A stretch of DNA of 64,000 nt from Solirubrobacterales bacterium (GTDB lineage: Bacteria; Actinomycetota; Thermoleophilia; Solirubrobacterales; 70-9): positions 1-64,000 of the forward strand of contig JAGQUR010000037.1 in the NCBI GenBank assembly GCA_020438395.1, written 5' to 3'. This document shows positions 37,970 to 47,410 of this stretch, piece by piece. Positions within the stretch are counted from its first letter, which is position 1; every line of letters starts with the position of its first letter. The position numbers and the translations under genes were made by a program. The notes beneath the pieces were generated by a model. That model was not told the origin of the DNA, made no database searches, and worked only from the letters and a program-made list of their open reading frames with translations.

Positions 37970-40900
37970 TCATCCAGGCTGGCTAATGGCGGGCACGCTG
38001 GGCTCGGGTTGACAGGCTGCCTTATCGAATGACTCGGCTCGTTGCGGGCCGGCGGTTTTTGTGAGGGTTCGTTCTCTGGTTGTGGGTGTCGCGTTCTCGA
38101 GTTGGGTGATCTCTTTCTGTCGGTCGGCCAGTTTCCCGGTTAGCTTGCGCCACTCTGCCTTCTGTTTGGGATCGGTTGGTTCGTGGCCGAGTGCCGTTGT
38201 CTTGCTGGCGACCGAGTGGAGCTGTCGGTAACGCTCGACTTGATCGACGGACTTGATCCACATGGCCCTGGCCAGGGGGTCGGTTGGGGGTGTTCCTAGG
38301 GTCGCGGTTATGTATTCGGGTGGCTTGGTGCGGTCGGCTGTGACTTGGGCTTGCCGGCGGGTTTGGAGTTCGCGTTCGATCAGGGTCCGTTCGGCTTTCT
38401 GTTCTGCTCGTCGTGACGGTGAGTCGAAAGGCTTGAACTCGTCCAGGTCGGCTTGTGCATGGGCGACGCGATCGGAAGCCGCTGTCTGCCGCTGGGTGAG
38501 CTGTCGCCAGAGCGCAGCTGGGGCTTGTTCGGTCTCGGTCTCGATGTCGCGCAGCTCGCCTTTCGCGTCGGCGAGCCTACGGGTGAGCCGATCGCGGGCC
38601 GCCTTATCGGCCGCGGCTTGCTCGTCGGCGTGGTCGAGGCTGTGGAGGCGGTGGGTGAGGCTGGTGTCGCCGAGCTGGGAGAGCTCGGCTCTGAGACCTT
38701 CGTCGACGGCTGAGGTCTCGGCGGCGTCGCGGGACACGGAGGCCGTGAGATCGTCCCAGTCGGTTCGGTTGTGGGCGGGTCCTGTTTCGAGGTCGATCGG
38801 TTCTTCGCCGACCACGGCGTAGAGACACATCTCTTCTTTGGCCCTGGATAGTGCGGTGGTCGCCCATTGCCGGTATATGCCGGCTTCGGCCTGGGCGAAC
38901 ACCGCGGCCCGGGTTGTGCCCTGGGCGGTGTGGCCGGTGACCGCGTAGCCGTGCTGTAGGGAGGGCCGATCGTGACGAGTTGTGGCGTCGAGGTAGCTGG
39001 CGCCGACGGTCACCTCGTGGGTGTCGTCGATCGACCGGAGCCGCAGCTCCCTTACCTCGGCGTTGGTTTCGACTACCTGCCAGCGTTGAAGGTTCCTGAT
39101 CCCGGCCCGGTGGTCGTTGATTCGAGTGACGACGAGATCCCCGGCCGCGAAGTTGGCGTCACCTGCCTGGACCGTTTCGGTGCCGAGCCGGTTGTGGTCG
39201 GCCATCAACGCCCGGGCCAATGTATTCAGTTCGGCTACCGCCGTGTTGGTTTGTGCGAGCATCACCGCGTCGTTGCCGGTCGAAAACGACTGCCACCAGT
39301 CAGCGACGAGGGCCTGGTCTCGCTCCGTGCCGTTGTTGGCGACGATAACCCCGTTGGTGGTGCGGAGAAGGTTGAGTGCTTCGGTGCCGTGCCCGGTGGA
39401 GATCAGTTCGAGGATGTGCCGATCGACTTGCTGCTGTTGGCGGTAGGAGTGGGGCATGGTCGCGATCCCGTGGCGTTCGTAGGTGGCTCGGAACAGGCCG
39501 CCGGCACCGATTGCTTGGAGTTGGTCGTAGTCACCGATCAGTACGAGCTTGCCTTCGGCCTGCTCGACGTGCTCGTGGAGGCGAACGAGGTCGCGGGTAT
39601 CGACGGTGGCGGCTTCGTCGACGACGAGGACGGCCCCTTTCGGGAGGGCGAGGTGCCCGCGGCTTGTCGCGTTGTCGAATTCGGCGAGACGGGAGGCGAT
39701 GCTCTTGGTGGGGATGCCGGTGCTCGCGGCAAGGACGTCGGCGGCCTGCCAGCTCGCACACGCCCCCAAGACCGGATAGCCCTCGGCCCGCCAGGCCTCG
39801 TGGGCGGCGGCGAGAGCGTGGGTCTTGCCGGCCCCGGCAACCCCAGCGATCGCGGCGACCGCATCGCCGCCACCCGTCACCGCCTGAACCATCTTGCGTT
39901 GCTGGGCGATCACCGACCGAAGTTGAGGGTCTGCTTGCTCGTTTTCGGTGTGTTGGTCGAGGCCGCGGGCGGCAAGGATCGCGTCAGTTCGGCTGGGCGC
40001 GACGAGGCCTCGGCCGGCGTCTTGTCCGTCGGCGGTCGCGTCGAGGAATCCTCGTTCGAGTTCAAGGATCTCGCGGGTGGTGTGGATGGATCCCCACGGC
40101 ACGTCCCCGATCCGCACAACCGTCTCGGTGTCTAGGAAACGGTCGGCAGCCTGTTCTATTTCGGGGACGGGCGCTCCTTCGGGGGCCAGTTCACAGAGGG
40201 TCTGGATTATGTCGCGGCGCTCAAAGTGCGATGCCTGCTCGGTGACCCTGCGGGTGAGAACGGCGGGGTCGGCCGGGACAGGTGGTGTCTCCCGGCCGGG
40301 ACCGACCAGTTGCCGGATGGTCTCCGGGGTCAGTCCGACCGTCGCGGCGCGCTCGATCCAGTCGGCCTCGAGTTCACCCGCTTCGAGATCAGTGTTCTTC
40401 GCTTTGCGGGTCTCCAAGGTCGATGATTGCCATGAGGCACGGGTGCCGGTACCGGAGGCGGCCTGGGCGGCTTCGATCTCAGAACGCCTGCGGGAAAAGA
40501 TCGCCTCGGCGGGCTCCTCGATCCCTTCGATGGACGCGGTGCCTCTTAGTACCTCACCCCACCGGACGCCGAGGGTCCGGGTGAGCTGGTCGCGTAGTTC
40601 GGCCTGGTAGAGAAAGCCGGCCGTCTTGGCGTTGGCGTAGAGGCTTGGGCTGTGGAGGCAGGTCCAACGACCATCGCCTGCTTTCACCAGCTTCGACACC
40701 AAGACGTGCGTGTGGAGCTGCGGGTCCCCGGCCCGGGAGGTCCGGTGACGGTAGGCCGCCCCGATCAGGTTCGGGGCTTGAAGGAAAGTGCCGCCACCGG
40801 CACCGCGACGGGCGAGAGCCGCGTGTCTTTCAAGATGGCCGAGCGCTTGGTCGACAGCGGCCTCGTGGGCGGCGATCACCCTTGAGCGAACCTGGTCGTC

Positions 40901-41200
40901 ACCGAACGCCCAAAGAAGCGACACCGACTTCGGGGCGCTGAAAGTTAAGTCGAATCCGGGTCCGTTCATGGTCTGCTCGCGGTCTTGTAGCGGCTGACCG
41001 GTGACCGGGTTCTTCGCAGCGAGCATCGCCTGGAGTTGGTCGCTGCTCACGCTGCCTTCAAGACCCAGGGCGGCGGCTCCAGATCCTGTCCAACGTCCCT
41101 CTGCTTCCCCGCCACCGACGTAATAGTCCTCGATCCCTTCAGCTACTTTGCCGAGGTAATAGGCCTCCTGGCCTGCGGCGAGTTTCCCGATCGAAAGCAC
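37970..41200 (-). CDS. Conjugative relaxase with helicase domain, MobF (TrwC/TraA) family
   Basis: About 1,076 residues. The N-terminal LSIGKLAAGQEAYYLGK segment carries the likely nicking tyrosines. It is followed by FDLTFSAPKSVSLLWA and the metal-binding HTH in DPQLHTHVLVSK near residue 163. The second half is a superfamily I helicase: Walker A GVAGAGKTHAL near 453 and Walker B VLVVDEAATVD near 524. A basic coiled-coil C-terminus ends the protein. It nicks the origin of transfer, stays bound to the 5' end and unwinds DNA. GTG at 41200 is chosen since relatives begin M-L-S-I-G-K-L; TTG at 41206 is the alternative. A consensus SOS box lies 48 bp upstream. Confidence 0.93.
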   Translation of the reverse strand: MLSIGKLAAGQEAYYLGKVAEGIEDYYVGGGEAEGRWTGSGAAALGLEGSVSSDQLQAMLAAKNPVTGQPLQDREQTMNGPGFDLTFSAPKSVSLLWAFGDDQVRSRVIAAHEAAVDQALGHLERHAALARRGAGGGTFLQAPNLIGAAYRHRTSRAGDPQLHTHVLVSKLVKAGDGRWTCLHSPSLYANAKTAGFLYQAELRDQLTRTLGVRWGEVLRGTASIEGIEEPAEAIFSRRRSEIEAAQAASGTGTRASWQSSTLETRKAKNTDLEAGELEADWIERAATVGLTPETIRQLVGPGRETPPVPADPAVLTRRVTEQASHFERRDIIQTLCELAPEGAPVPEIEQAADRFLDTETVVRIGDVPWGSIHTTREILELERGFLDATADGQDAGRGLVAPSRTDAILAARGLDQHTENEQADPQLRSVIAQQRKMVQAVTGGGDAVAAIAGVAGAGKTHALAAAHEAWRAEGYPVLGACASWQAADVLAASTGIPTKSIASRLAEFDNATSRGHLALPKGAVLVVDEAATVDTRDLVRLHEHVEQAEGKLVLIGDYDQLQAIGAGGLFRATYERHGIATMPHSYRQQQQVDRHILELISTGHGTEALNLLRTTNGVIVANNGTERDQALVADWWQSFSTGNDAVMLAQTNTAVAELNTLARALMADHNRLGTETVQAGDANFAAGDLVVTRINDHRAGIRNLQRWQVVETNAEVRELRLRSIDDTHEVTVGASYLDATTRHDRPSLQHGYAVTGHTAQGTTRAAVFAQAEAGIYRQWATTALSRAKEEMCLYAVVGEEPIDLETGPAHNRTDWDDLTASVSRDAAETSAVDEGLRAELSQLGDTSLTHRLHSLDHADEQAAADKAARDRLTRRLADAKGELRDIETETEQAPAALWRQLTQRQTAASDRVAHAQADLDEFKPFDSPSRRAEQKAERTLIERELQTRRQAQVTADRTKPPEYITATLGTPPTDPLARAMWIKSVDQVERYRQLHSVASKTTALGHEPTDPKQKAEWRKLTGKLADRQKEITQLENATPTTRERTLTKTAGPQRAESFDKAACQPEPSVPAISQPG

Positions 41201-41247
41201 GCCCAAAAGGGGACCGGGGGAGCCGGTCTGTTACGTTTTTCATCACC

Positions 41248-41261
41248 CGAACGTATGTTCG
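41248..41261. promoter_or_regulatory. SOS box (LexA site) upstream of the relaxase gene
   Basis: CGAAC-GTAT-GTTCG is a perfect match to the Gram-positive/actinobacterial LexA palindrome CGAAC-N4-GTTCG. It lies 48-61 bp before the relaxase start. It predicts repression of the relaxase by LexA and induction by DNA damage. Confidence 0.72.
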
Positions 41262-41493
41262 GTGATACTGTGTGGGATGGGTGCGGGGCTGGTGCCGGGG
41301 AGAGCTTCAGGGGGTCGCCGAAGGATCGCTCGAAGCCGAGAATCACCCTTGTCTAGGGCTCGGTGAGGGCGGTTCGCTGGGTGCTGCTGGTTTGCCTGTG
41401 GGTCTGCGGTCGAGTGATCCTTCTCTGAATGAGGCAGGCGAAGTGGGAGGGGCTTGAGCACCCATCCCACACGAGCGCAGCGAGTTTGCGGCG

Positions 41494-42141: not shown

Positions 42142-42375
42142 GTGGTGCCGACAACGGGATCACCGGAGAACCTCGCGCTGGGTCGTGCCATGAGGGCCAC
42201 GCGAGAAGAGCAGGGCATAAGCCAGGAGGCGCTGGCGCTTAAGGCTGGCCTTCATCGCAACTACTACAGCAGCATCGAACGCGGCAACCACAACCCCAGT
42301 CATCTCGTGATCTTGAAGATCGCCGAGGCGCTCGACGTCAAGGCCTCAGAGCTATTGGCCCGTGCGGGCCAATAG
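42142..42375 (+). CDS. XRE-family transcriptional regulator
   Basis: 77 residues, essentially one Cro/C1 helix-turn-helix: LGRAMRATREEQGISQEALALKAGLHRNYYSSIERGNHNPSHLVILKIAEALDV, with the recognition helix around HRNYYSSIERG. Such small repressors often control conjugation genes of ICEs. It starts at GTG 42142, or GTG 42145 one codon later. The adjacent operator-like repeats support local autoregulation. It converges on ardC. Confidence 0.85.
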   Translation: MVPTTGSPENLALGRAMRATREEQGISQEALALKAGLHRNYYSSIERGNHNPSHLVILKIAEALDVKASELLARAGQ

Positions 42376-42398
42376 CTCTGGTGGGTTGCCCGTCGCCG

Positions 42399-43262
42399 TC
42401 AGTAGGCGAGGGCGAGGTTCATCGAGTAATCCACCGCGTCGGCGGCGAGGGCTGCGGCGGTGAAGATCGCCTTGTTGTCGTTCTCGAGCAGCTGAACCCA
42501 GTCGGCCAGGTAACGGGCCGTGTCCTGGGTGGTGGTAGCTTCCATGTCGAACTCGGCGGCGAGGAAGTGAGCGCCAAGCTCCGCGACGAGCTCTTCTGCC
42601 GCGTAGCGTCGGTCACCGAATCTGCCGGTCATGTTCCGGTCGAGCCGGTGGGCCGCGCCGGTCCAGTGGGTCAGTTCGTGAAACGCCGTGGCGTAGTAGT
42701 GCTCGGTGCTGGTGAACTGCTCCCTCTGAGGGAGGGTTATGTAGTCGCCTTTCTTGTTCCAGAAGGCCCGGTCGCCGCCGTGCCTGATCTCGGCTTCTGT
42801 GGTGTCCAAGAAGTCCTCGGCGGTCCGGTCGATCTCGGCCACGTCCGGTAGCTCGATCTCGGCAGGTTCGTATCCGTCGACCTGGGCGGCGTTGAAGACG
42901 GTCGGCCAACAAACCACGGTGCGAATCCTCTTGCCTTCGGGTGCGGTGTCGTCCTCGACCTCCTTGCGGGTGACGTATCGGATCACGGTTCCCTTCTCGC
43001 CTTTTCGGACCTGCGCGTCGCGGTCTCGCCACTGCCCGTAACCGGCCCACTCGTTCGTCGCGTATTCGCGCTCGGCCGCAGTAACCCAGAGTTGCAGGAC
43101 GTTGCCGCCCCGGTAGCGCTTCGAGGTGGTTGGGTTGATCGGCCTGCCGCCTTTGGTTCGGCTGACCCATCCGGGCCGCCACTCGGCGGGGTCGGCGTCG
43201 CGCATCTCGTCGAGGATGCGGTCGGTGAGGTTGGAGTATCGGTCGTGTTGTCTGCGGTCCAT
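42399..43262 (-). CDS. ardC: ArdC-family antirestriction protein
   Basis: 287 residues. The N-terminal ssDNA-binding domain (about 1-125, DRYSNLTDRILDEM through KGEKGTVIRYV) is followed by a metallopeptidase-like domain with the zinc motif HELTHW near residue 204 and the downstream Glu in AAEELVAELGAHFL. ArdC proteins protect incoming single-stranded DNA from host restriction in the recipient. ATG at 43262 has AAGGAG 8 bp upstream. A large inverted repeat lies 59 bp upstream, which could be a single-strand promoter. Confidence 0.9.
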   Translation of the reverse strand: MDRRQHDRYSNLTDRILDEMRDADPAEWRPGWVSRTKGGRPINPTTSKRYRGGNVLQLWVTAAEREYATNEWAGYGQWRDRDAQVRKGEKGTVIRYVTRKEVEDDTAPEGKRIRTVVCWPTVFNAAQVDGYEPAEIELPDVAEIDRTAEDFLDTTEAEIRHGGDRAFWNKKGDYITLPQREQFTSTEHYYATAFHELTHWTGAAHRLDRNMTGRFGDRRYAAEELVAELGAHFLAAEFDMEATTTQDTARYLADWVQLLENDNKAIFTAAALAADAVDYSMNLALAY

Positions 43263-43320
43263 CGTGGTCTCCTTGTCTCGGCACCTGGGGTGCTGTCTCT
43301 CGGAACCGGGGCGATGGCCT

Positions 43321-43410
43321 GTGGCTTGTTCCTCGGTTCCGACTCGGAGGCCACCCGCCGATCTCTGATCGGCCAAAATGGCCGGAGGTTGGAACCGAGG
43401 AACAAGCCAC
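43321..43410. repeat. 20-bp perfect inverted repeat with nested hairpins upstream of ardC
   Basis: 43321-43340 is the exact reverse complement of 43391-43410. The 50-nt interior holds another perfect 7-bp hairpin (43357-43373, TCT loop) and a GGCC-AAAAT-GGCC alternative (43371-43383). The whole 90 nt would fold into a strong structure when single-stranded. It lies between parB and ardC and upstream of the ardC ribosome site. Confidence 0.85.
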
Positions 43411-43427
43411 CTCACCCGCCCCTTCGG

Positions 43428-43462
43428 GAAGCCCCCGCCCCGGAGTCGAACCGGGAAGGACC
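43428..43462. repeat. T-arm-like repeat, copy A
   Basis: On the minus strand this reads like a tRNA T arm (CCCGG-TTCGACT-CCGGG). It resembles copy B at 45133-45168, with about three-quarters of bases identical by eye. The two copies flank the parB gene. No full cloverleaf is present. Confidence 0.5.
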
Positions 43463-43480
43463 ATCCGGGGGCCGCAGCAT

Positions 43481-45076
43481 CTACTCGCCTGAGTCCTCCT
43501 TTCCGTCACCGATGGCCTTGACGATCTGCGCCTCTTCGCTGGCGAGGATGTCCCGAGCCGTCGCGTCAAGGCAGCCGGGCAGGAGCCGGGGCGAGGACGG
43601 ATGGCCCTTCACGCGCTTGGCCTGCGGCAACTCGTGCTCGTCGGTGAGGTGCGCCGCGACCAGCGCATCAGAGACCACCTGCACGATCTGCTCAGGCGAG
43701 GTAGCCGAGTCGATCCGTCGCAGCAGATACTCGGTGGCCTCGTCCGGGTCGGCGAACGTCACCTTCGTTCGCTGATTGCCGGACTTGCTTGTCGTGACCT
43801 CGACCTCGGAGAGAGCCGGGTCGGTGAGCCGGAGCCCTGCGGCGGCGAGCTTGTCGTCGGCAAGCACCGTCGCGTGAGCCATCAGCTTCACCACGTCAAG
43901 CACCCGCCGCTTGCCCGGAGCACGTTTCGCCCGGCGTGAAAGCGCCTGCCCGACAGCGCCGTTGTGGGACCGGGCGGCAGCCTTAGCGGCCTTCCGTTCG
44001 GCGGCTTTCCGCTGACCTTCCGACTGCTCGGGCTTGCCCGTTTCACCTTCGGCGTGGGTCTGCTTGGCGTTGGCCTTCTCCTGCTCGGCCAACTCCTTCT
44101 TGACCTGCTTCTCCTGCGTCTCAACCAGCACTTCGATCTCGGTGCGAAGCAACGGCACGTCGAAGATGAACTGGTGGGTGCGCTGCCACCCGCCGTGATC
44201 GGCCTCAACTTCAAGCAGAGCACCGGCTGCTCGCAACCGATCAGTCGAATCCGATCCGAGCGTGAACCGCACCTCGTCCTCATAGGCGCTGATCCCCGAG
44301 ACGTGAACGCCTGAGCCAACCAACACCGCGACGCGATCTGTCAACTCCTGCTTCGCGGCTTCGTCGTAGTCGAGCGTTTCGAGCGCGATGCGATGCACGC
44401 CGGTAACTGTCGTCCCTTCCGGCAACTCGGTCGATCCCGAAGCGACAAGCTCCGCGAGGGAACTGAGAGCATTGGGCATGTCGAGCCGCAAGGCTCGGTC
44501 CCAATCGTCAGAGGCCACGGCCTGCTTGGCGAGCTTCACCGCGACCGCCTTGCCTCCGGCGACCTCAGCGACCGGCAAAAGTGCCGCCGCTGTTGCCGGG
44601 CCGAACTGGTGACAGGTGAGCACTTCCTCCTGCACCTCGTCGGGCAGACGGGTCATCGCGACCAGTTGACTAACCACCCGCGGTGAGATACCGACCTCGG
44701 CCGCGAGCGCCTTCTGCGTCCCGAAGTGCGCAAGCTGCCTCTTCAAGGACCTGGCCCTGGCCATCGGGGTCATGTCCTCGCGCTGCTCGTTTTCGGTGTA
44801 GGCCGCGCTCTCGCGATTGTCGAGCGAGCGAACGTGCACTGGGACTTCTTTGAGGCCGGCTTGTTTGGCGGCTGCCGCGCGGCGGTAGCCGGCGGTGAGC
44901 CGGTAGCCGTCGTCGGTCGGCTCGACCAGAAGCGGGGTGAGGACACCCTGCGACTTGATGCTTTCGGCCAGACCCGCGATGCTCTCCGGCTCGATCTTCC
45001 CACGCGGATTGTCCGCCGGGTCAATGACAAGCTCCGTGAGCTTGACCGTCGTTGATGTGGTTGCTGCTTCCATCAT
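43481..45076 (-). CDS. ParB/Spo0J-family protein
   Basis: About 531 residues. The N-terminal ParB CTPase domain (KIEPESIAGLAESIKSQGVLTPLLVEP, TAGYRRAAAAKQAG, ENEQREDM) is followed by the helix-turn-helix (FGTQKALAAEVGISPRVVSQLVAMTRLPDEV). A long Lys/Ala/Glu linker and a C-terminal region of unknown fold follow. It is longer than chromosomal ParB, and no ParA gene is adjacent. ICE ParB-like proteins can act in maintenance or as transcription regulators (KorB-like). ATG at 45076 or 45073 follows GAGG; GTG at 45103 lacks a site. Confidence 0.85.
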   Translation of the reverse strand: MMEAATTSTTVKLTELVIDPADNPRGKIEPESIAGLAESIKSQGVLTPLLVEPTDDGYRLTAGYRRAAAAKQAGLKEVPVHVRSLDNRESAAYTENEQREDMTPMARARSLKRQLAHFGTQKALAAEVGISPRVVSQLVAMTRLPDEVQEEVLTCHQFGPATAAALLPVAEVAGGKAVAVKLAKQAVASDDWDRALRLDMPNALSSLAELVASGSTELPEGTTVTGVHRIALETLDYDEAAKQELTDRVAVLVGSGVHVSGISAYEDEVRFTLGSDSTDRLRAAGALLEVEADHGGWQRTHQFIFDVPLLRTEIEVLVETQEKQVKKELAEQEKANAKQTHAEGETGKPEQSEGQRKAAERKAAKAAARSHNGAVGQALSRRAKRAPGKRRVLDVVKLMAHATVLADDKLAAAGLRLTDPALSEVEVTTSKSGNQRTKVTFADPDEATEYLLRRIDSATSPEQIVQVVSDALVAAHLTDEHELPQAKRVKGHPSSPRLLPGCLDATARDILASEEAQIVKAIGDGKEDSGE

Positions 45077-45132
45077 GTACCTCGTTTCCGGGTGTGTGTG
45101 CACCCTTTGTTGGTTTCTGATCTATGGGAGTT

Positions 45133-45168
45133 GAAGTCCCGCGCCCGGAATCGAACCGAGCCAAGACC
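45133..45168. repeat. T-arm-like repeat, copy B
   Basis: The minus strand reads CTCGG-TTCGATT-CCGGG with flanks resembling copy A at 43428. It lies 57 bp upstream of parB. No anticodon or acceptor partner was found. Confidence 0.45.
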
Positions 45169-45344
45169 AAAGCGGGGAGGTGGAGATCCGGGAAGGTCGC
45201 GCTGCTACCGAAACGTGGTGCTAGGTTCGGTGGAGAGCGACGCGCTTCCGTACCTCGGAGCGGGTTGCCGGGCGGCGCGTGTGTGCGCGTCGCCAAGGCG
45301 GAAGCAAGCCCGGCCCACACGGGCCGGGCCGCTCCGCCCAACGG

Positions 45345-45725
45345 CTACGCGCTCGCCGTGGCCGTCGCTTCGACCGGTTCCGGGTGGGTCGTGTTCCTCG
45401 GCTTGCTCCCGAAGATCACATGCTCGGCCACCACATACAGGCGTGAGCGGCGCTCGTCGTCGGTGCCCCAGCTTTCCTGCCGGAGCCGCCCGGAGATCGT
45501 GACCGCCTGACCCTTGACAAGACTCTTGGTGCAGGCTTCGGCCTGGCCCTGCCAGACCTTGACCGGCACGAAATTCGGCCGATCAGCGTAGCTGCCGTCC
45601 TCGCCTTTCACTCGGTCGTTGACGGCTACCCGAAACTCGGTGTAAGCGGTGCCGTTTGGCGTCTGCTTCAACTCGACGTCCGTCGCGACCCGTCCGGTGA
45701 TGGTTGTGGTGTTGATGTCCTGCAT
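45345..45725 (-). CDS. ssb: Single-stranded DNA-binding protein
   Basis: 126 residues with the OB-fold pattern of bacterial SSB: TTTITGRVATDVELKQTPNGTAYTEFRVAVNDR, then FVPVKVWQGQAEACTKSLVKGQAVTISGRLRQESW. It is shorter than chromosomal SSB and lacks the acidic DDDIPF-type tail, ending in EATATASA instead, so it may not recruit the usual host partners. ATG at 45725 is preceded by AAGGAGG. SSB genes are typical of conjugative leading regions, together with ardC. Confidence 0.92.
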   Translation of the reverse strand: MQDINTTTITGRVATDVELKQTPNGTAYTEFRVAVNDRVKGEDGSYADRPNFVPVKVWQGQAEACTKSLVKGQAVTISGRLRQESWGTDDERRSRLYVVAEHVIFGSKPRNTTHPEPVEATATASA

Positions 45726-46092
45726 GATGGCCTCCTTGGGCTGGTGTTTCCTCTTAGGGCCACATGGATCGCAATCTGTTCGCGGCACGCGGTTCCCTCG
45801 TTGATTGGATGCCAAGTTGTGGCTCTGCCGCTGCAGTCACCGAGCGAAAGCGAGGGGAACCCCGAAGGGGTTGACGGCAGCGTCAGAGCCGCCAAACTGG
45901 CAGGAGGTCAACGAGGGAGGTGACCCACATCCCCGCAAGGGGATGCACGCCGACGGCAGTCCCCGCGAGGCGAGCGCTCCTAACTCACAAGGTGGGGCGC
46001 TCGTCGAGTGTTCGCCCAGGTGCCCCGTGTAGCGGGTTTGTCGGTGCTGGCCTTTGGGTTCTCAAACATGAGGTGCGTCTGGAAACGGTGGC
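45726..46092. other. Non-coding region with a cluster of small hairpins
   Basis: No gene is supported. Tight stem-loops stand out: 45858-45872 (6-bp stem, GAA loop), 45872-45885 (TGACG/CGTCA, GCAG loop) and 45928-45945 (7-bp stem, GCAA loop). They lie upstream of ssb. A structured leader, a small RNA or part of an origin are all possible. Confidence 0.5.
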
Positions 46093-46921: not shown

Positions 46922-47410
46922 ATGGATACGGTACCGCGCATGGAAGCCGTGCATTGCACACGATGCGGTCGTGAACCGCGTCCCGAGGAGTTCACCGACC
47001 TCGGTCAACTCGTGCAGACACTTCCTCAGGAATCGAACGCGGGCGGAAGCCCGTTTGGGACGGCTACTCCTTGGGCCAGGTTGGACGACAAGTTGATTTG
47101 CCCGAGTTGTCAAAGTCAAACCGAAGCCGAGATTGTCGCTTTCCGCTTGATCGAAGCAATCGAGGAGGAAATTGAACGGCTACGGCAGGAGGGAGTCGAT
47201 CCCACTCGCCATGAATCTGCTCTCATCGCTTACGCGATGTTTCTCCGAGAGCGATTGCAATCCCCCCCCCCCCCGAATGATGCACCGGCTCACGTCTCCG
47301 CAGCCAGGTATTTCCGGGGGAGAATCGGGCGCCTACTCGTTGAGGGTTGCAGTTACAGGGGCCTTCCTGACCGGTTGCCCGCTGCAAGTCAGGTTCGGTG
47401 CGTACCGTGA
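46922..47410 (+). CDS. Zinc-ribbon protein, first half of a locus split by a poly-C tract
   Basis: 162 residues as read. An N-terminal zinc ribbon (HCTRCGREPRPEE ... LICPSCQSQTEAE, residues about 11-65) is followed by an acidic helix (FRLIEAIEEEIERLRQEG) and ALIAYAMFLRERLQS. Then comes a run of prolines encoded by 13 C residues at 47262-47274. Beyond the tract the frame becomes Arg/Gly-rich and ends without obvious structure. Removing one C would join this domain to the long membrane protein frame downstream. ATG at 46922 has a weak AGAAGAG site. No family recognised. Confidence 0.55.
   Translation: MDTVPRMEAVHCTRCGREPRPEEFTDLGQLVQTLPQESNAGGSPFGTATPWARLDDKLICPSCQSQTEAEIVAFRLIEAIEEEIERLRQEGVDPTRHESALIAYAMFLRERLQSPPPPNDAPAHVSAARYFRGRIGRLLVEGCSYRGLPDRLPAASQVRCVP
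47262..47274 (+). repeat. C13 homopolymer within a coding region
   Basis: Thirteen consecutive C residues, the longest homopolymer I saw in the window. It lies exactly where two good coding frames meet. Either a phase-variable slippage tract or a sequencing length error. Confidence 0.9.

Follow-up and report, generated by a model that had tools for sequence, protein, structure and literature searches.

The gap between parB and ardC in an integrative conjugative element (ICE) of a Solirubrobacterales bacterium contains a long inverted repeat, and the locus raises the question of whether this repeat serves to express ardC from single-stranded DNA entering a recipient. A preliminary description had interpreted it as a hairpin-forming single-strand promoter or origin of the Frpo/ssi type. 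To our knowledge, F-like plasmids are the main source of known single-strand promoters, which have been sought through a -35/-10 consensus or by similarity. The window comprised the whole analysed stretch of 64,000 nucleotides (GCA_020438395.1, contig JAGQUR010000037.1, positions 1 to 64,000), to which all coordinates refer.

The ardC repeat and its host element

The repeat consists of a left arm at 43321..43343 and a right arm at 43388..43410. Complementarity between 43321-43340 and 43391-43410 was perfect over 20 bp and extended to 22 of 23 bp, and the perfect 20-bp repeat with nested hairpins reported for the ardC leader was thus confirmed in coordinates and complementarity. The single arm mismatch (43341/43390) reads as G.T on the + strand and as C.A on the mRNA-sense strand. 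The spacer holds two nested hairpins (43357..43383), GCCGATC-TCT-GATCGGC and GGCCA-AAA-TGGCC on the + strand; the first (43357-43373) has 7 bp and a TCT loop, the second (43371-43383) 5 bp and an AAA loop. This was the longest perfect-arm inverted repeat in the window at spacers of up to 150, and when the 64 kb were shuffled 100 times with dinucleotides preserved, no arm exceeded 15 bp. The hairpin is genuine, and its origin by chance is very unlikely. Folding as single-stranded DNA gave -40.0 kcal/mol (z -8.9) for the + (transferred) strand and -38.4 kcal/mol (z -7.2) for the - strand. The repeat follows the parB stop (43481) and precedes the ardC start (43262), lying 58 nt ahead of the ATG, in a short gap between two co-directional genes. 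The claimed proximity to parB and ssb held for parB; ssb lies about 2 kb off and is not directly adjacent.

Gene content was assigned with Pfam. On the - strand, ardC (42399..43262, 287 aa) carries ArdcN and zincin-like MPTase-PolyVal domains (2.6e-26 and 1.9e-46), the parB-like gene (43481..45076) ParB_N and HTH_ParB, ssb (45345..45725) an SSB domain (2e-25), and the relaxase-helicase gene (37970..41206) a TrwC/MOBF domain (1.1e-80). An integrase, VirD4 and a VirB4-like ATPase were also present, and because of these genes together the element was classed as a MOBF conjugative element, in agreement with the ICE setting originally claimed. The order ssb-parB-relaxase on one strand recurs across related genomes. 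The relaxase gave no plasmid match at 1e-40, and no ArdC relative was found within the class at E 1e-35 (399 genomes); diverged ArdcN genes are present in L145 and L136. Directly past ardC, at 42347-42380, is a perfect 16-bp palindromic hairpin, possibly a terminator without a T run. A run of approximately 13 G on the - strand (47262-47274), upstream of a methyltransferase gene, may be a slippage site or an assembly error.

Transfer polarity was read from a putative oriT nic region on the + strand (41248..41276), directly upstream of the relaxase gene, comprising the hairpin CGAAC-GTAT-GTTCG followed by GTGATACTGTGTGGG (also given as TACTGTGTGGG). In 14 of the 43 relaxase loci examined in the class, a short hairpin and, after it, (A/T)A.TGTGT were found 6-45 nt ahead of the relaxase start; in the common orientation they were on the + strand every time and never on the other, and 662 kb contained 16 such sites in total. 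The nic geometry of MOBF systems is established from R388 and F, where the cleaved strand carries the hairpin 5' of nic. Because of this geometry and of the nic-like motif on +, the + strand is probably the transferred strand, the ardC/parB/ssb side would enter first, and the + strand would be the template of ardC, parB and ssb, at a predicted nick position. The polarity on which the preliminary description depended, with the + strand presented as ardC template, was thereby upheld, the motif being on + and ardC on -. As for Frpo/ssi elements, the repeat would belong to the leading region and the gene after it, ardC, would have the transferred strand as its template, the exact nick being predicted. 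Its folding (z -8.9 as single-stranded DNA) provides the stable transferred-strand hairpin that also characterises them.

Comparison with Frpo elements and with other leaders in the window

A scan for the sigma70 consensus, which covered this sigma type, returned no -35/-10 site in 43200-43520, and there was no intrinsic terminator in the same interval. The TCT and AAA loops are outside the stable-DNA class, and neither is the GNA-type template-strand loop of an N4-type promoter. Copies of the repeat were absent from its own genome, from viral contigs and from plasmids, and the ardC leader had no convincing match among 72,556 plasmids. Rfam returned nothing above family threshold for these structures; the output was limited to a tRNA and one sub-threshold match without meaning. 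Such hairpins were found at 6/90 ArdC loci versus 15/900 control windows. With the window itself and L034 excepted, the repeats at these loci were AT-rich chance cases, with one 13-bp case; on these grounds the hairpin was dropped as a general ardC trait. Identity with Frpo was not supported, for want of a -35/-10, of a counterpart at the 90 other ArdC genes, of a second genomic copy and of a stable-DNA apical loop.

The Frpo/ssi elements of F-type plasmids (PMC11541004, PMC9849209) nevertheless resemble the system in leading-region position, in the use of the transferred strand as template, in hairpins before ssb and anti-defence genes and, in relatives of the window ICE, in the presence of several hairpins per element. 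Unlike them, the ardC hairpin is GC-rich without -35/-10-like elements, and the relatives have as their core structure a short hairpin whose loop is of the GNA type and whose spacing to the ATG is fixed.

Directly upstream of the ardC repeat is a leader hairpin on the - strand (43430..43475), GCCCCCG..CCCGGTTCGACTCCGGG..CGGGGGC. A matching hairpin, CTCGGTTCGATTCCGGG, stands upstream of parB on the same strand (45125..45172), and CGGTTCGAYTCCG occurs twice in the window, once in each of the two leaders. Because the same hairpin precedes parB, the 43430-43475 structure was considered a repeated leader, and its explanation as a tRNA remnant was dropped. The distance from the shared hairpin to the ATG is approximately 75 nt for parB and 187 nt for ardC, and the ardC repeat lies within the extra length.

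The ssb leader contains a long nested hairpin (45790..45945) whose + strand loops are GAA (45860-45870), GAAA (45842-45855) and GCAA (45929-45944). All three are of the stable-DNA GNA/GNNA class and on the transferred strand. Loops of the GNA and GNNA types are exceptionally stable in DNA (PMC4686876), and the same is stated of GNNA and GNAB loops in a passage of PMC8373063 that cites Nakano 2002. Portions of this leader are conserved ahead of ssb in L143, L145, L136 and L137. Because it has three stable-DNA loops on the + strand and the ardC repeat has none, the ssb leader appears to be the better candidate for a single-strand element in the window.

A two-hairpin leader family in related ICEs

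Related ICEs had been proposed as the place to look for a conserved structure. The exact repeat was absent from them, which by the preliminary description's own criterion counts against its reading of this repeat; other hairpins were found at the equivalent place. Their ssb and parB leaders are strongly structured, and structured leaders recur ahead of ssb, parB, ardC-like genes, DprA and other genes. A covariance model (R1) was built from five leader copies, four upstream of parB and one upstream of another gene. It comprises a hairpin (GC-rich lower stem, internal loop, upper stem) followed by ACCGGCTCCCGCAnCGGGCGGGnGC as a second hairpin. There were 36 distinct copies, with further matches in the family and the order at E down to 1e-13; matches included L143, L144, L145, L146, L136 and L137, with up to about ten per genome (G408). 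Among 178 phylum-wide genomes there was no match at 1e-3, a result that is weak owing to strict filters, and no Rfam family corresponded. R1 is, on its predicted structure, an uncatalogued two-hairpin leader element of MOBF ICEs. When scored with R1, the ardC leader reached 9.7 bits at best, which is not significant; this weak resemblance is that of the 43430..43475 hairpin, and the repeat is not an R1 copy.

R1 usually ends 16-26 nt before a start codon; in 23 of 24 examined cases the distance to the ATG was 17-24 nt, with a Shine-Dalgarno sequence between. The downstream genes include parB, ArdcN proteins (L145, L136) and a DprA. The family is not restricted to the leading region, because some copies stand beyond the relaxase, on the late-entering side.

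The apical loops of the R1 upper hairpin, read on the template strand, were GNA (23 copies), GNAB (5), GNNA (4), CNNG (3) and other (1). Thus 35/36 copies have a stable-DNA loop, against a background GNA share of approximately 10% in comparable hairpins of the same loci, and the family contains the 5-7 bp template-strand hairpin with GNA loop of the N4 type. Ten of these loops lie 60-64 nt before their own start codons. A leader scan independent of R1 found stable-DNA loops on the transferred strand in 22/43 and on the sense strand in 2/43 (P = 1.6e-6), and after removal of the R1 leaders in 11/32 versus 2/32 (P = 0.011), P values that overstate independence since related copies share ancestry. 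In coding DNA the same scan gave 57/572 versus 36/572. The ssb leader of the window carries the same loop signature as the R1 leaders of the relatives.

The stems gave a different signal. In the R1 lower stem and mainly the second hairpin, sense-strand G.U occupied 20 alignment cells versus 4 for C.A, which points to mRNA, with the caveat that the R1 model itself favours G.U. Consensus folding of R1 also preferred the sense strand (-28.8 versus -24.0); ssb leaders folded slightly better as the transferred strand. Transition-type arm mismatches, which in the window, L144, L145 and L143 had all seemed to indicate the transferred strand, were set aside as the basis of the argument because the R1 stems point the opposite way. 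The loop test and the stem-pairing test therefore disagree in part. Both would be accommodated if a template-strand DNA hairpin set the transcription start and the second hairpin were formed in the transcript.

Candidate functions of the leaders

In the mechanism proposed here, the + strand would enter the recipient 5' end first from nic (approximately 41.27 kb). The ardC repeat, which on computed folding is able to form in this strand, the template of ardC, would then fold with its leader, and the folded single strand would permit expression of ardC before the second strand is made. In the relatives the same task would be performed by the conserved two-hairpin leader, in which a DNA hairpin on the template strand, bearing a GNA-type loop and standing approximately 60-64 nt before the start codon, would be followed by the second hairpin, the Shine-Dalgarno sequence and the ATG. 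Transcription would start between the two hairpins, because the second obeys the pairing rules of mRNA. The ardC repeat would represent an element-specific, divergent form that lacks a recognisable promoter consensus. This role for the leader of ardC, situated within the leading region of the MOBF ICE, is put forward tentatively, as a reading that could well prove wrong.

The same degree of reserve applies to the broader proposal that MOBF ICEs of the order may use uncatalogued single-strand promoters. Ahead of every early gene (parB, ardC-like, ssb and others), a GNA-class DNA mini-hairpin on the template strand would stand at a set distance from the start codon. It would need no sigma70 consensus elements, would resemble the promoters of the N4 virion polymerase, and would be accompanied by a 5' mRNA hairpin close to the ribosome site; the ardC repeat would then be either a divergent member or a substitute. 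Promoters of the N4 virion RNA polymerase are hairpins of the template strand whose loop has a sheared G:A, and they are recognised in DNA that is single-stranded or extruded (PMC4496689). The R1 upper hairpin, though not the ardC repeat, resembles these promoters in being a short DNA hairpin of the template strand that is capped by a G-N-A loop; R1 differs in its second hairpin and lower stem, in its 60-64 nt distance to the ATG, and in that no dedicated or N4-like RNA polymerase was found among the proteins examined. A giant protein of L145, considered as a transferred RNA polymerase, was rejected as an RHS protein.

A structured mRNA leader would explain part of these data, and we regard it as a possible though rather doubtful alternative. 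The parB-ardC transcript would fold, and the hairpin would insulate ardC translation, protect or process the mRNA or bind a regulator, R1 being a cis-regulatory RNA adjoining the ribosome footprint. The position of R1 beside the Shine-Dalgarno sequence, 17-24 nt before the ATG, is consistent with this, as are the covariation of its alignment with sense-strand G.U over C.A (20 versus 4), the folding preference for the sense strand and the short co-directional parB-ardC gap; cis-regulatory leader RNAs likewise present conserved covarying hairpins beside the Shine-Dalgarno sequence. Against it, R1 matches no Rfam family, its template-strand loops are almost all of stable-DNA types, and its sense-strand loops (UNC, UNNC) do not belong to the known stable RNA loops. 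The bias towards transferred-strand loops also persists outside R1, and ssb leaders fold slightly better as that strand.

We consider it improbable that the repeat acts, in place of an ardC promoter, as a single-strand origin or priming site (ssi/sso) from which the second strand would be made after transfer. A large transferred-strand hairpin near oriT would suit this function, stem-loops in the transferred strand are known from sso1 of ICEBs1 and other single-strand origins (PMC4595007), and Frpo is described as serving both transcription and primer synthesis in a title cited in PMC11541004. However, an sso is present once per element and is not phased to start codons, while the related leaders are so phased and are found at several places in one element, one for each gene, an arrangement that priming does not need. 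Insertion of the 90-bp repeat as a MITE-like palindrome between an older leader hairpin and ardC, with no role in expression, is similarly unlikely. The surplus of the ardC over the parB leader (approximately 187 versus 75 nt from the shared hairpin to the ATG) contains the repeat, and CT flanks it on both sides; a 2-bp flank match is weak, being expected in 1 of 16 cases by chance, and the repeat is a single genomic copy with no match in plasmids or viral contigs.

The single-strand expression reading was thus partly supported. The MOBF ICE, the + strand as probable template of ardC and the relatives' structured, ATG-phased leaders with a template-strand DNA-loop signature argue for it. The length of the ardC repeat, its fold in the transferred strand and its G.T mismatch on that strand count in favour as well; its loops and its lack of a -35/-10 count against. 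For this class of ICE an element for single-strand expression is plausible, and for the ardC repeat it is unproven, so that the original idea suits the class better than the structure on which it was based. If correct, a family of ATG-phased template-strand hairpins in the ICEs of another lineage would widen the modes by which incoming DNA can be expressed before it becomes double-stranded. The loop class on the transferred strand would be a searchable signature separating single-stranded DNA from mRNA function, and the DNA loop and the mRNA hairpin are separately mutable, so the choice between DNA and mRNA is testable.

Leaders of other kinds were also observed in the class. In another ICE (L132:3682-3768), a perfect 23-bp inverted repeat with a spacer of 41 lies 101 nt ahead of a gene encoding an SLFN/AlbA_2 and RecG-like protein. 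An element of the same genus (L129, oriented offsets 7921 and 13857) carries a leader of its own, GCGGGGGTCGCTCCCCGCG...AAAGCGAAAGGAACAAC-ATG, repeated before parB and an SNF2-like gene.
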